Shown: piece by piece, positions 2,557 through 22,912 of the stretch
Numbering within the stretch: position 1 is the first letter of the stretch
Layout of the letters: every line of letters starts with the position of its first letter
Source: a virus
Virus record (IMG/VR): IMGVR_UViG_3300009149_000306
Span: 1-22,912 of that record
DNA: 22,912 nucleotides
Reading direction: 5' to 3' (one strand)
Position numbers and translations under genes: made by a program
The notes under the pieces: model-generated
The model's database searches: none
Told to the model about the DNA's origin: nothing
The model's input: only the letters and a program-made list of their open reading frames with translations

Positions 2557-3729
2557 ATGGAGATGAAATATACAGTAACACCAGTCTATGACAAAATCAT
2601 TAAATACAAACACAGCGAACTGCTTCTCTTGCTTGGTGGTGCTGGTTCTGGTAAAAGTTATCCGATCTCTCAATACTGGGTGTATCACAAACTTCTACAT
2701 GAGACAGGTAAAACTCTAGTTGTATCACGTAGAACAATGCCCTCTCTTAAGTTGTCTGCCAAGCTAGAAATTTTATCTAGACTAGAAGAGGCGAACCTCC
2801 CGTATAAACCACAAAAAAGTGAAAACTATCTAACTTATCACGGGAACAAAATTATCTTCATGCAACTTGATGATCCAGCAAAACTAAAATCTATAAACGC
2901 AAACTATTGGTGGTTAGAAGAGGGAACCGAGCTTAACATCAACACCTTTACCCAAGTTAAGTTGAGAAACAGAAAACCAAACGAGGATGATAAAAACCAA
3001 ATCATAGTAAGCTTTAACCCTGTTAATAAGTATAACTGGGTCAAAGTAAATCTTATCGACACAAATGTACCATATGTTTTACTACATTCCACGTGGAGGA
3101 ACAATCCTTATTTATCCAAAGAATACCTACGATCCATATCGGAGCTGAAAGAGTATGCACCACATTTATGGGAAGTATATTCAGAAGGGAAATGGGGAGC
3201 AACAGAAGGTGTTATTTACAAACGCTGGAAGGTCGGTCAATACCCCGAAGATACGGAAGGTTATAAAGTTTACATAGGGCTAGACTTTGGAGCCACAAAC
3301 CCGACAGCGATCATTATGATGGCGGAAAAAAATGAACATCTTTACGTAAAAGAAATTTGCTACGAAACAAACATGTCGAACCAAGATATAATAAGGAGAT
3401 TGAAAGAAGCGAACGTACCACGACATCTCACAATATGGGCTGATCCAGCTGAACCCGACAGGATAAAAGAAATACGGAGAGCCGGTTTTAATATTCGTGT
3501 AGCAAAAAAACGAGTAACCGATGGGATTATGGCAGTACAGACATACAAAATAATGATTGAGCCGGAAGCCGAAAACGTGGTGAAAGAAATATCTGGGTAT
3601 CGTTGGAAAGAAGTGAACAATATCACGTTAGATGAACCGTTAAAACTAAATGACCACGCAATGGATGCCATACGATATGGGGTTTATAGCGAATACAATA
3701 AGACGTCTCCTATCATCCAATTCGTGTAG
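2557..3729 (+). CDS. terL: Terminase large subunit (ATPase-nuclease)
   Basis: A 390-residue packaging motor protein, somewhat short for the family (usually 400-550) but with both domains complete. The ATPase domain has Walker A GGAGSGKS (27-34), Walker B-type YWWLEEGTEL (117-126, acidic E121/E122) and the coupling motif SFNPVN (152-157). The RNase H-like nuclease domain has GLDFG (D243), WADPAEPDRI (D296) and LNDHAMDAIRYG (D370). This is the PBSX/Terminase_3 type. It docks on the portal, translocates DNA with ATP and cuts the concatemer. The start is ATG 2557; ATG 2563 is an alternative, and neither has a strong ribosome site, suggesting coupling to the small subunit gene. The stop codon overlaps the first dyad of the downstream regulatory array. 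Confidence 0.95.
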   Translation: MEMKYTVTPVYDKIIKYKHSELLLLLGGAGSGKSYPISQYWVYHKLLHETGKTLVVSRRTMPSLKLSAKLEILSRLEEANLPYKPQKSENYLTYHGNKIIFMQLDDPAKLKSINANYWWLEEGTELNINTFTQVKLRNRKPNEDDKNQIIVSFNPVNKYNWVKVNLIDTNVPYVLLHSTWRNNPYLSKEYLRSISELKEYAPHLWEVYSEGKWGATEGVIYKRWKVGQYPEDTEGYKVYIGLDFGATNPTAIIMMAEKNEHLYVKEICYETNMSNQDIIRRLKEANVPRHLTIWADPAEPDRIKEIRRAGFNIRVAKKRVTDGIMAVQTYKIMIEPEAENVVKEISGYRWKEVNNITLDEPLKLNDHAMDAIRYGVYSEYNKTSPIIQFV

Positions 3730-3831
3730 TTATTACGGTATTAACTAGAGTTATTACGGTATTAACTAGAGTGACATTGATGGTTATACCGTAGTAATTA
3801 CAGTCGCACTGATATAAACACTGTTTTTAGT
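3728..3831 (+). promoter_or_regulatory. Regulatory dyad array A: four 19-bp imperfect palindromes
   Basis: Two identical tandem sites, AGTTATTACGGTATTAACT (3728-3746 and 3749-3767), are near-perfect dyads with one T:T mismatch per arm. A third, one base shorter, is GGTTATACCGTAGTAATT (3782-3799), and a fourth, weaker, is TATAAACACTGTTTTTAGT (3813-3831). Dyad centres are 3737, 3758, 3790 and 3822, giving steps of 21, 32 and 32 bases (two, three and three helical turns). All would face the same side of the DNA. No T-run follows, so these are not terminators. They look like cooperative sites for a dimeric DNA-binding protein; the binder is unknown. Confidence 0.6.
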
Positions 3832-3839
3832 ACACAAAT

Positions 3840-3884
3840 TAAAGTAAAGTAAAGTAAATTAAACTAAAGTAAATTAAACTAAAG
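3840..3884 (+). repeat. TAAAN pentamer array A (nine units)
   Basis: Nine uninterrupted pentamers: TAAAG x3, TAAAT, TAAAC, TAAAG, TAAAT, TAAAC, TAAAG. The array starts 18 bases after the centre of the fourth dyad and ends inside the ribosome site AAAGAGGTGATCC (3881-3893). The same element follows the second dyad array at 21784. Its strong A/T strand bias fits a flexible or easily melted segment, or a multi-site binding tract. The function is unknown. Confidence 0.75.
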
Positions 3885-3895
3885 AGGTGATCCTT

Positions 3896-3946
3896 GTGAT
3901 TTATTTTATAGGTATAAACTTGACATTAAAAAAAGTAAGGTTATAA
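3896..3946 (+). CDS. Putative 16-codon leader peptide before the portal gene
   Basis: The best ribosome site in this intergenic region, AAAGAGGTGATCC (3881-3893), is not placed for the portal ATG but for GTG 3896. That GTG opens MIYFIGINLTLKKVRL and stops with TAA at 3944-3946, seven bases before the portal ATG at 3954. The portal start itself has only a weak, distant AAGG. The layout suggests translation and re-initiation on read-through mRNA. The peptide is too short for any homology argument and may serve only for coupling. Confidence 0.4.
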   Translation: MIYFIGINLTLKKVRL

Positions 3947-3947
3947 C
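3920..3947 (+). promoter_or_regulatory. Predicted sigma-A promoter abutting the portal start codon
   Basis: TTGACA (3920-3925), a 16-base spacer and TATAAC (3942-3947). The portal ATG is at 3954, seven bases after the -10 box, where transcription would be expected to begin. If used, it gives a leaderless or nearly leaderless portal mRNA. It lies downstream of dyad array A and the pentamers, so it could be the promoter they control. Confidence 0.45.
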
Positions 3948-3953
3948 ACAAGT

Positions 3954-6008
3954 ATGACAACACTGCAAACGATTCAAAAGAAAATTGTTGGAAGTGTACG
4001 TAAAATGTTGGGTGTAGGGAATCCCTACGATCTCCTAAAAACCTATACAGTGGACAATATCACAGACCCGAAAACCGCATATGCGAATTCTATGTATTTA
4101 CAGGCTTGCTTGAAGAAGAACGCAACGTACATATCGGGAGTCCCAGTAGCTATGCAGCAAACTTTAGAAAAGTTTAACTACCATTATACATGGAAGAAAA
4201 CAATATATAGTTTATACCACCTTATGGAGCTACATGGCTACGGCATATTTTGGTATGAACGATCAGAAAAAATATTGTGGCTTGTTGATCCGAGTGACAT
4301 TACAAGAGGTGAAAAAGGTTTCTTTGATTGGAGAAACAGGACGTTGCAAACAACACAGCATGTGCACTATACAGATTGTGTAATCATACGAAATATGGCT
4401 CCTACTTTGACCGCTACGGGGGCATCTCTTTTGACGGAAGGGTATTACAACCAATTAAATATCGATTACCAACAGGCAGTTATGGAACTAAAGTTTTTTA
4501 GACGAGGGCTCTTTTCAGGAGCATATTTAATATCAGAAGGGATACTGAATGACCAAGAAAAAGACAATATAAAGGCGCAGCTGGCTCACGAGTATAGTGG
4601 ATCCAAAAATGCAGGATCCATACCTATATTTCCAAAAGACTTAGAGTTGAAAACGATCACAATGAACCCTAGTGACTTCAAGAAGAATGAAGGTTCAGGA
4701 GATACGATAGCAATTAAAAAGGCTTGCATGATGACTGGTGTACCACCTCCGTTACTTGGTATAAGAGATGCGGGCTGGGGTAAAGAAGAAGACGTAATAA
4801 CATCGTATTTTACAGGAACCATACGTGTGTATTGCGAATCGATAGCAGACGAGATCAATTTACGATTATTACCCCTGCTTGGTATAGCAGGAAGATACGA
4901 GTATGAGTACCATAAGGACCTTACTTTCTCAAAGATAAATCGAGAAACGAATAAGGCATTGTTAGAGTACGTTAAATATGGTGTATATACAGTAAATGAC
5001 GTAAGGGACCAGTTATTTATGCCCCACGTGCCTTGGGGTGATAAACCGATGAATATGCAGCCAGTAAAAGAAGAAACCGGAGAAAAACAAGTGTTCGGGT
5101 TACCCAAACTACAAGTTGTACAAGTCAAGAATACAAAAGGGTATCCTGTGGATGTTGCGATGGCACTCGATGACGCAGAAAAAAGACGATCGAATTCGGA
5201 AAAAATTATAGCAAGGCAGATGGAGAAATATTACAAGGCGCAAAAAAAAGATGTGCTAGCGAAAATAGAAAATGCGGAAACGACTAGAGATCTTGAAAAC
5301 GTAAGTGTCGATAAAAAGTTTGGGAAATATATAATAAGCATTGGGAAAAGTATGTTACCTCACATTTATTATGACATAGGGCAGGGGACCTTCATTTTAT
5401 ATAAGAGTGCCTACGGAGATCTAGACGAGAAACGTAATAAGCTAAGCCCGGATGAACTAGACCGCCTTATGGAAGAATTATTACATGACGAGAGTATTAT
5501 GCCAGAGTATGCGACGCCAGGTTTTGAGTTAAACAATCCAAACGTACTCAGGGCGATCGAAGACCAAGCCAACAAGCTTTCTATCAATATTTATGGTACG
5601 GACGTGACAATGATACACAATGAAATCAAAAAAGTTCTTGCAGAGATATACGAAGAAGGCTTAGGGATCAATGAAACGGCAAAACGAGTGCACAATGCAG
5701 TGTCTCACAAATACGATAGTTGGTTACACCACAGGGTCCAGGCAATAGCAAGAACAGAGTCCACAACGGCATATACACATGCAGCAACGGAGGGAGCGAA
5801 ACAAGCGAGTATGGATATGAAGAGCTGGCTCCATTCAGGGAATATGACAAATCCTAGAGAGGAGCACGTTGCAGCAGAGGGTGATTGGATACCCATTGAT
5901 GCTGATTTTGAGATAGGTGGTACACCCATGTATGGGCCAGGAGATGGACCAGCAGAGCAGGTTGTAAATTGTGGATGTTCACTGATATTCGGTAGAGACG
6001 TACGATAG
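3954..6008 (+). CDS. Portal protein fused to a MuF/SPP1 gp7-type head morphogenesis domain
   Basis: A 684-residue protein, well above the usual 400-500 of portals. Residues 1 to about 370 match PBSX-type portals, including AYANSMYLQACLKKNATYIS, the ELKFFRRGLFSGAYLISEG segment and MTGVPPPLLGI. The portal is the dodecameric ring through which DNA enters. About residues 400-525 form a charged helical linker. Residues 526-684 match the phage Mu gpF / SPP1 gp7 family, with RVQAIARTESTTAYTHAATEGA and the closing block GDWIPIDADF...MYGPGDGPAEQVVNCGCSL. That domain is normally a separate minor head protein needed for correct assembly or DNA ejection. No stop or second start separates the two parts. 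Confidence 0.92.
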   Translation: MTTLQTIQKKIVGSVRKMLGVGNPYDLLKTYTVDNITDPKTAYANSMYLQACLKKNATYISGVPVAMQQTLEKFNYHYTWKKTIYSLYHLMELHGYGIFWYERSEKILWLVDPSDITRGEKGFFDWRNRTLQTTQHVHYTDCVIIRNMAPTLTATGASLLTEGYYNQLNIDYQQAVMELKFFRRGLFSGAYLISEGILNDQEKDNIKAQLAHEYSGSKNAGSIPIFPKDLELKTITMNPSDFKKNEGSGDTIAIKKACMMTGVPPPLLGIRDAGWGKEEDVITSYFTGTIRVYCESIADEINLRLLPLLGIAGRYEYEYHKDLTFSKINRETNKALLEYVKYGVYTVNDVRDQLFMPHVPWGDKPMNMQPVKEETGEKQVFGLPKLQVVQVKNTKGYPVDVAMALDDAEKRRSNSEKIIARQMEKYYKAQKKDVLAKIENAETTRDLENVSVDKKFGKYIISIGKSMLPHIYYDIGQGTFILYKSAYGDLDEKRNKLSPDELDRLMEELLHDESIMPEYATPGFELNNPNVLRAIEDQANKLSINIYGTDVTMIHNEIKKVLAEIYEEGLGINETAKRVHNAVSHKYDSWLHHRVQAIARTESTTAYTHAATEGAKQASMDMKSWLHSGNMTNPREEHVAAEGDWIPIDADFEIGGTPMYGPGDGPAEQVVNCGCSLIFGRDVR

Positions 6009-21578: not shown

Positions 21579-21606
21579 TTGACAAGCTGAGTTGTGTCGT
21601 TATAAT
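21579..21606 (+). promoter_or_regulatory. Full-consensus sigma-A promoter for a short RNA
   Basis: TTGACA (21579-21584), a 16-base spacer and TATAAT (21601-21606) match both consensus boxes perfectly. It sits just after the late terminator. Transcription would begin near 21611-21614 and meet a terminator about 65 bases later, with no credible ORF between. Confidence 0.75.
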
Positions 21607-21612
21607 AAGTAT

Positions 21613-21679
21613 TAATTCTTTTCGATGATCTCCTGAAGTAATGTGCCTCCGGTTGCAAAAGCAGTCGGAGTTTTTTTTT
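21613..21679 (+). ncRNA. Candidate ~67-nt phage small RNA
   Basis: Bounded by a perfect promoter and a strong terminator. The only ATG inside (21641) would run a 25-codon frame through the terminator and lacks a good ribosome site. The 5' part contains an unpaired-looking GATGATCTCCTGAAG that is complementary to purine-rich AGGAGAT-type sequences, as in ribosome-binding sites, so antisense action is possible. It could also be an attenuated leader for the region downstream. No known RNA family recognised. Confidence 0.5.
21647..21679 (+). terminator. Intrinsic terminator of the short RNA
   Basis: A 10-bp stem, CTCCGGTTGC (21647-21656) with GCAGTCGGAG (21661-21670), two wobble pairs and an AAAA loop, followed directly by nine T residues. 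Confidence 0.85.
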
Positions 21680-21692
21680 ATTGGAGATAAAA

Positions 21693-21775
21693 GGTTAACA
21701 CTGTTTTTAGTACAGTGATGGTGTAGTTAATACTGTAGAAATTATGGACGTATTGACATTAATGCAGTTTTTAGT
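21693..21775 (+). promoter_or_regulatory. Regulatory dyad array B: three 19-bp sites at 32-bp steps
   Basis: Sites GGTTAACACTGTTTTTAGT (21693-21711), AGTTAATACTGTAGAAATT (21725-21743) and CATTAATGCAGTTTTTAGT (21757-21775) fit, with variation, the consensus of array A. Centres are 21702, 21734 and 21766, exactly 32 bases apart, with 13-base linkers. The first and last share the TTTTTAGT right half with the fourth site of array A. The first also overlaps a CACTGT...ACAGTG inverted repeat (21699-21717). The array lies upstream of the accessory cassette and just after the short RNA. Confidence 0.6.
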
Positions 21776-21783
21776 ACACAAAT

Positions 21784-21833
21784 TAAACTAAAGTAAACTA
21801 AAGTAAACTAAAGTAAAGCAAATTAAACTAAAA
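21784..21833 (+). repeat. TAAAN pentamer array B (ten units)
   Basis: Units run TAAAC TAAAG three times alternating (a 10-bp period), then TAAAG, CAAAT, TAAAC and TAAAA. The first unit begins 18 bases after the last dyad centre, the same distance as in array A, and 21 bases across the junction (21767-21787) are identical to 3823-3843. The stretch continues as A/T-rich DNA to about 21860 with no gene. Confidence 0.75.
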
Positions 21834-21863
21834 AAAATAAATTAAAATTTATTTACTCATCAA

Positions 21864-21877: not shown

Positions 21878-21906
21878 ATACTCTTTAAAAAAACTTGAAA
21901 AAAAAA

Positions 21907-21950
21907 GAAAAAAACGGTTGTAATCCCTTTTTTTAGGTATATAATAATAA
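21907..21950 (+). promoter_or_regulatory. Accessory-cassette promoter, copy 1 of a 44-bp exact repeat
   Basis: Contains TTGTAA (21918-21923), a 16-base spacer with a T-tract, and TATAAT (21940-21945). It is preceded by A-tracts at 21887-21893, 21898-21906 and 21908-21914, spaced 10-11 bases, resembling an UP element or bent DNA. The same 44 bases recur at 22869-22912. It would drive the gene at 21985. Confidence 0.65.
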
Positions 21951-22836: not shown

Positions 22837-22876
22837 AAAAAAACTTGAAAAAAACTTGAAAAAAACTTGAAAAAAA
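22837..22876 (+). repeat. Phased A-tracts (11-bp tandem repeat) upstream of the second promoter copy
   Basis: Four A7 tracts start at 22837, 22848, 22859 and 22870, separated by CTTG, giving an 11-bp tandem repeat. A-tracts repeated near the helical period bend DNA and can act as promoter UP elements. The tracts end at the -35 region of the promoter at 22880. Copy 1 has a less regular version. Confidence 0.8.
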
Positions 22877-22912
22877 CGGTTGTAATCCCTTTTTTTAGGT
22901 ATATAATAATAA
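22869..22912 (+). promoter_or_regulatory. Accessory promoter, copy 2 (reaches the window end)
   Basis: The 44 bases at 21907-21950 are repeated exactly here, with TTGTAA (22880-22885), a 16-base spacer and TATAAT (22902-22907). It follows a terminator, so it should start a new unit beyond the window. The repeat may extend past the edge. Confidence 0.65.

Follow-up and report, generated by a model that had tools for sequence, protein, structure and literature searches.

We propose that array B, a row of three related sites in the genome of a tailed phage, belongs to a duplicated module of the replication-origin type, in which an iteron-like array is joined to an unwinding tract. Taking our analysis as a whole we put the probability of this reading at about 0.4, and slightly prefer it to a model in which both arrays are operators for a shared regulator. 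The element would be of a known kind for which no sequence relative has been found so far, apart from that in a 99.9% identical contig. The window, meaning the whole stretch of DNA analysed, is a viral record of 22,912 bases to which no host genome is attached, and represents a partial phage genome.

Sites and spacing of the two arrays

The window holds seven related 19-bp sites, all on the + strand:

3728..3746, +: array A site 1, centre 3737; repeats site 2 exactly, as a 21-bp tandem duplication
3749..3767, +: array A site 2, centre 3758; a near-perfect dyad
3781..3799, +: array A site 3, centre 3790
3813..3831, +: array A site 4, centre 3822
21693..21711, +: array B site 1, centre 21702; CACTGT-N7-ACAGTG, centred on 21708, is the better local dyad
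21725..21743, +: array B site 2, centre 21734; among the B sites the best match to GTTAnTACnGTAnTAAC
21757..21775, +: array B site 3, centre 21766; a weak dyad whose 3′ part is near-identical to array A site 4

The original prediction had described array B as three variant sites exactly 32 bp apart, and related 19-bp segments are indeed present at these centres with that step. When the whole window was scanned for three equally spaced similar 19-mers, the array B triplet (d=32 at 21694) ranked second with 39/57 matches, behind a simple A-rich tract at 21779, and with that tract set aside it is the best equally spaced triplet of the window. The prediction had also proposed a comparison with shuffled sequence, in which spaced matches proved not to be common: none of 2000 dinucleotide shuffles of region B reached a score of 39, and 32-bp site pairs, sought with a symmetrised site matrix built from array A only, appeared in none of 300 whole-window shuffles. 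Chance A/T-rich similarity is ruled out by these shuffles. The same matrix finds 8 matches in 22.9 kb that score at least as high as the weakest B site, and seven of them are the array sites themselves. Self-similarity at a lag of 32 bp is raised in both regions (z=3.8 in B, z=5.3 in A), and several motif positions are invariant across all seven sites. The arrays thus consist of direct repeats in tandem with a regular, helically phased spacing, to which array A adds a 21-bp step (3737 to 3758) that is a perfect 21-bp tandem duplication.

Symmetry is less pronounced in array B, where the sites pair at 5, 5 and 4 of 8 positions, than in array A sites 1-2, which pair at 7 of 8. The dyads of array B are thus of moderate to low quality; 2.8% of all window positions reach 5 pairs and 11.5% reach 4. 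An E. coli-type LexA box (CTGT-N8-ACAG) was considered for CTGTTTTTAGTACAG and rejected, its spacer being 7 instead of 8.

The arrays as parts of a 134-bp repeat

Alignment of the two regions places each array within a longer repeat:

3750..3883, +: 134-bp noncoding repeat, copy 1; array A sites 2-4 and the A-rich tract
21694..21827, +: 134-bp noncoding repeat, copy 2; array B and the A-rich tract

The copies lie 17.9 kb apart in the same orientation and align over 134 bp without a gap at 76% identity, with 32 substitutions and no indel; by self-BLAST this is the only dispersed repeat (copies >1 kb apart) in the window. Sites 1-3 of array B are the counterparts of sites 2-4 of array A, so that, judged by the alignment, array B is a paralogous copy of the array A module and not an independent array. 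The step of 32 bp is equal in A and B because both are copies of one element.

This bears on the earlier argument that spacing kept while sequence drifts points to selection on geometry. The linkers do differ between the arrays, as had been noted, but they are still related (8/13 identical each), and identity between A and B is 37/51 (73%) in the sites and 16/26 (62%) in the linkers, a difference that is not significant (Fisher P=0.44). With paralogous arrays, and a conservation of the sites that does not significantly exceed that of the linkers, the argument is a weak one, although the lack of any indel among 32 substitutions lends it mild support; given this and the invariant motif positions, selection on geometry is possible. 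Best conserved are the last site and the A-rich tract (46/53 in the tract, 87%).

The repeat could also be a relic, an intergenic segment copied by recombination or module exchange whose spacing is merely inherited and which has no present function. A single ungapped homology accounts for all of the shared geometry, and the similar conservation of sites and linkers fits this explanation as well. We nevertheless regard it as unlikely, since the motif positions are invariant across seven sites, substitutions have accumulated with no indel, the 32-bp periodicity is internal to each copy, and a genome that is ~95% coding has retained the unit as noncoding DNA at both locations.

The adjoining A-rich tracts

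Directly 3′ of each array lies an A-rich tract with 5/10/15-bp periodicity:

21780..21859, +: A-rich tract 3′ of array B; 5/10-bp period to 21832, 60% A on the + strand; no other 80-bp segment of the window is less stable
3836..3884, +: A-rich tract of pentamers 3′ of array A; together with the DNA immediately 3′ of it, ranks second in the window for low stability

Nearest-neighbour energies rank the two tracts first and second for low duplex stability in the 22.9-kb window, at each of the 50-, 80- and 120-bp scales. Both copies of the repeats are thus adjoined by an AT-rich tract of low stability, for which melting is predicted from the energies. The tract, overlooked in the original prediction, is better conserved than the array half of the module, which suggests an origin-type element. 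That array and tract were copied together as a single 134-bp unit also favours an origin. Against this, low duplex stability is common in intergenic regulatory DNA too.

Promoters around the two modules

The best promoter matches of the window all lie near the arrays and outside the repeat:

21579-21606, upstream of B: promoter-like TTGACA-N16-TATAAT; 12/12, a perfect sigma-A-type match
3920..3947, +: promoter-like TTGACA-N16-TATAAC between module A and the portal gene; 11/12, a consensus match only
21918..21945, +: promoter-like TTGTAA-N16-TATAAT between module B and the small-gene cassette; 10/12, a consensus match only

This proximity of the strongest promoters to both arrays speaks against an origin and for operator or enhancer arrays, on which a phage repressor or late activator, possibly by looping, would co-regulate the portal-to-lysis operon and the small-gene cassette, in the manner of MrpR and its SPBRE sites in SPbeta. 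The dyadic, helically phased sites, the promoter matches 98 bp (A side) and 152 bp (B side) downstream and the 12/12 match upstream of B all accord with this, and our analysis leaves it a possible, though less than probable, explanation. Neither array, however, contains a sigma-70-type promoter match, the type to which the scan was limited, and the sites neither overlap nor abut such a promoter. The site-to-promoter layout also differs between the two units, as the homology stops before both downstream promoters, which are unlike each other and at unequal distances. At 22880-22907 the B-side promoter recurs in near-identical form without an array, and the strong conservation of the A-rich tract would be left unexplained. 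A unit that is noncoding at both places, with no promoter-like site inside the arrays and the promoters outside it, instead favours an origin. The earlier proposal that one protein sets both units fares accordingly: from the shared motif and the helically phased step, recognition of both arrays by one protein is plausible, whereas control of both units is possible but not favoured, given where the homology stops, the differences in promoter sequence and distance, and the promoter copy without an array.

Several further transcription signals were observed. The 64-bp region around the B-side promoter occurs twice, at 21887-21950 and 22849-22912 (89% identical, copies 962 bp apart), and the second copy is preceded by an 11-bp tandem AAAAAAACTTG repeat. 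As the contig ends inside this second copy, the assembly may have broken there and further copies may exist. At 21579-21680 a strong terminator (21647-21670) comes ~40 bp after the perfect sigma-A-type promoter, an arrangement that would suit a small RNA of ~65 nt with little predicted fold beyond the terminator hairpin. At 3920-3954 only 7 bp separate the end of the 11/12 match from the portal ATG, so that the message would be leaderless or translation would begin at a later codon (e.g. 4005). The terL-portal gap also carries, at 3886-3950, a Shine-Dalgarno-like AGAGGTGATCC and then a 16-codon ORF, a possible leader peptide.

Gene content

The window is a tailed-phage late gene block, in the order HTH/small-terminase-like protein, terL, portal-MuF fusion, capsid, tape measure, tail genes, SLH-bearing amidase, a small ORF of holin size (no match in a family search) and small ORFs. 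The gap between terL and portal is ~224 bp, and among 75 scored loci (the 99.9% identical contig and distant TerL relatives) it is usual for the following large ORF to begin within 50 bp of terL. No ORF of at least 60 aa covers either array, ruling out a coding or translated repeat, and a search for a known RNA or tRNA found none.

1833-2543: ORF for the HTH-bearing small-terminase-like protein; Pfam HTH_AraC, weak Terminase_5, and a weak PHROG small-terminase match

No HTH protein other than the product of this ORF was recognised in the window, and its gene lies 1.2 kb upstream of array A. It, or another phage DNA-binding protein, might use the arrays as a packaging or partition site, which in our assessment is quite improbable: copies 17.9 kb apart would mean two packaging starts, and the ParB_N protein encoded at 1529-1873 has no recognised DNA-binding half. 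This 114-aa protein adjoins the small-terminase-like gene.

Other evidence weighs against an origin. No initiator or replication-initiation gene was recognised among the ORFs searched in this partial genome, the neighbours of both copies of the module are late genes, with no replication gene containing or adjoining either copy, and GC skew keeps its sign at both. No perfect DnaA box lies nearby, nor are DnaA boxes enriched; a DnaA box is not known to be required in SPP1 or lambda. How the readings balance will turn on the rest of the genome, where the replication genes, and possibly further arrays, are expected.

Relatives and known systems

A search of IMG/VR with four exact motifs and one tandem-pair pattern returned a single true relative of the arrays, L004, the 99.9% identical contig from the same phage, in which array A is unchanged. 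Three other loci (L092-L094) look like chance motif matches and one (L091) like a simple repeat. Array A had no match in the phage collection, where the B region gave only unrelated 28-base matches; the array had none in the plasmid collection and only 17-19-base matches in 20 relative records. Portal and capsid protein scans of genome contigs found no relative, and across 646 kb of loci, taken from both related and other phages, the seven-site matrix found no pair of sites. Apart from L004, no relative has a recognisable copy of the array.

Several of the 11 distant relatives examined do carry non-terminal dispersed repeats, often noncoding, as a copied relic would lead one to expect. These repeats look like promoter modules, a resemblance that would suit operators. 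One TerL relative (IMGVR_UViG_3300033998_000411, L014; 39% identity) has a region of comparable design at 2349-2796, ~3.5 tandem copies of a ~127 bp module, which are likewise noncoding and combine ATCATGATTA dyads with an A/T-rich tract of 10-bp period, but are unrelated in sequence and lie upstream of an HTH gene preceding methyltransferase and terL genes.

Among described systems, SPP1 has two origins, oriL and oriR, ~13 kb apart, each with direct repeats and an AT-rich unwinding element, and oriR lies in a late-region segment that is bracketed by transcription signals and carries moron genes (PMC6316719). By this published description the likeness extends to two elements >10 kb apart, direct repeats adjoining an AT-rich tract, and a position of one of them near late genes and morons, between transcription signals (PMC6316719). 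The difference is that oriL lies inside initiator gene 38, whereas here no initiator gene is seen and both copies flank late genes. Lambda-type origins consist of iterons and an AT-rich tract, and share with our module the row of iterons with such a tract on one side (PMC7466680); the lambda origin, however, is within gene O, and the module here is intergenic, has a 32-bp step and exists in two copies. In SPbeta, MrpR binds SPBRE, a 15-bp motif in the promoter regions of many genes, and so provides a short element repeated at several intergenic sites of one phage and read by one protein (PMC10516654). The sites here differ from that account in forming tandem arrays 98-152 bp from promoters, with a melting-prone tract (PMC10516654).

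Model for the paired modules

The model that we slightly favour starts from an ancestral array of three sites, whose 32-bp step, ~three helical turns, would place all of them on one face of the helix. A phage initiator may bind the sites cooperatively on this face, provided that one protein recognises them, and would then wrap or bend the DNA and open the adjoining A-rich tract, as at SPP1 oriL/oriR. The outcome would be initiation of replication, or stalling of the fork at the second copy. One may go further and suppose that a single phage protein bridges the two modules, which bracket the structural and lysis block, and couples replication initiation or fork stalling to late transcription, but we consider this quite improbable.

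Paired origins of shared design are already well documented in SPP1. Should the modules prove to be such a pair, they would extend the design to a phage that has no detectable DNA relatives and in which, again, one copy lies among late genes, and the reason for keeping two origins could be tested in a compact system. Should they prove to be operators, a single regulator would act on two late units at an unusual distance.
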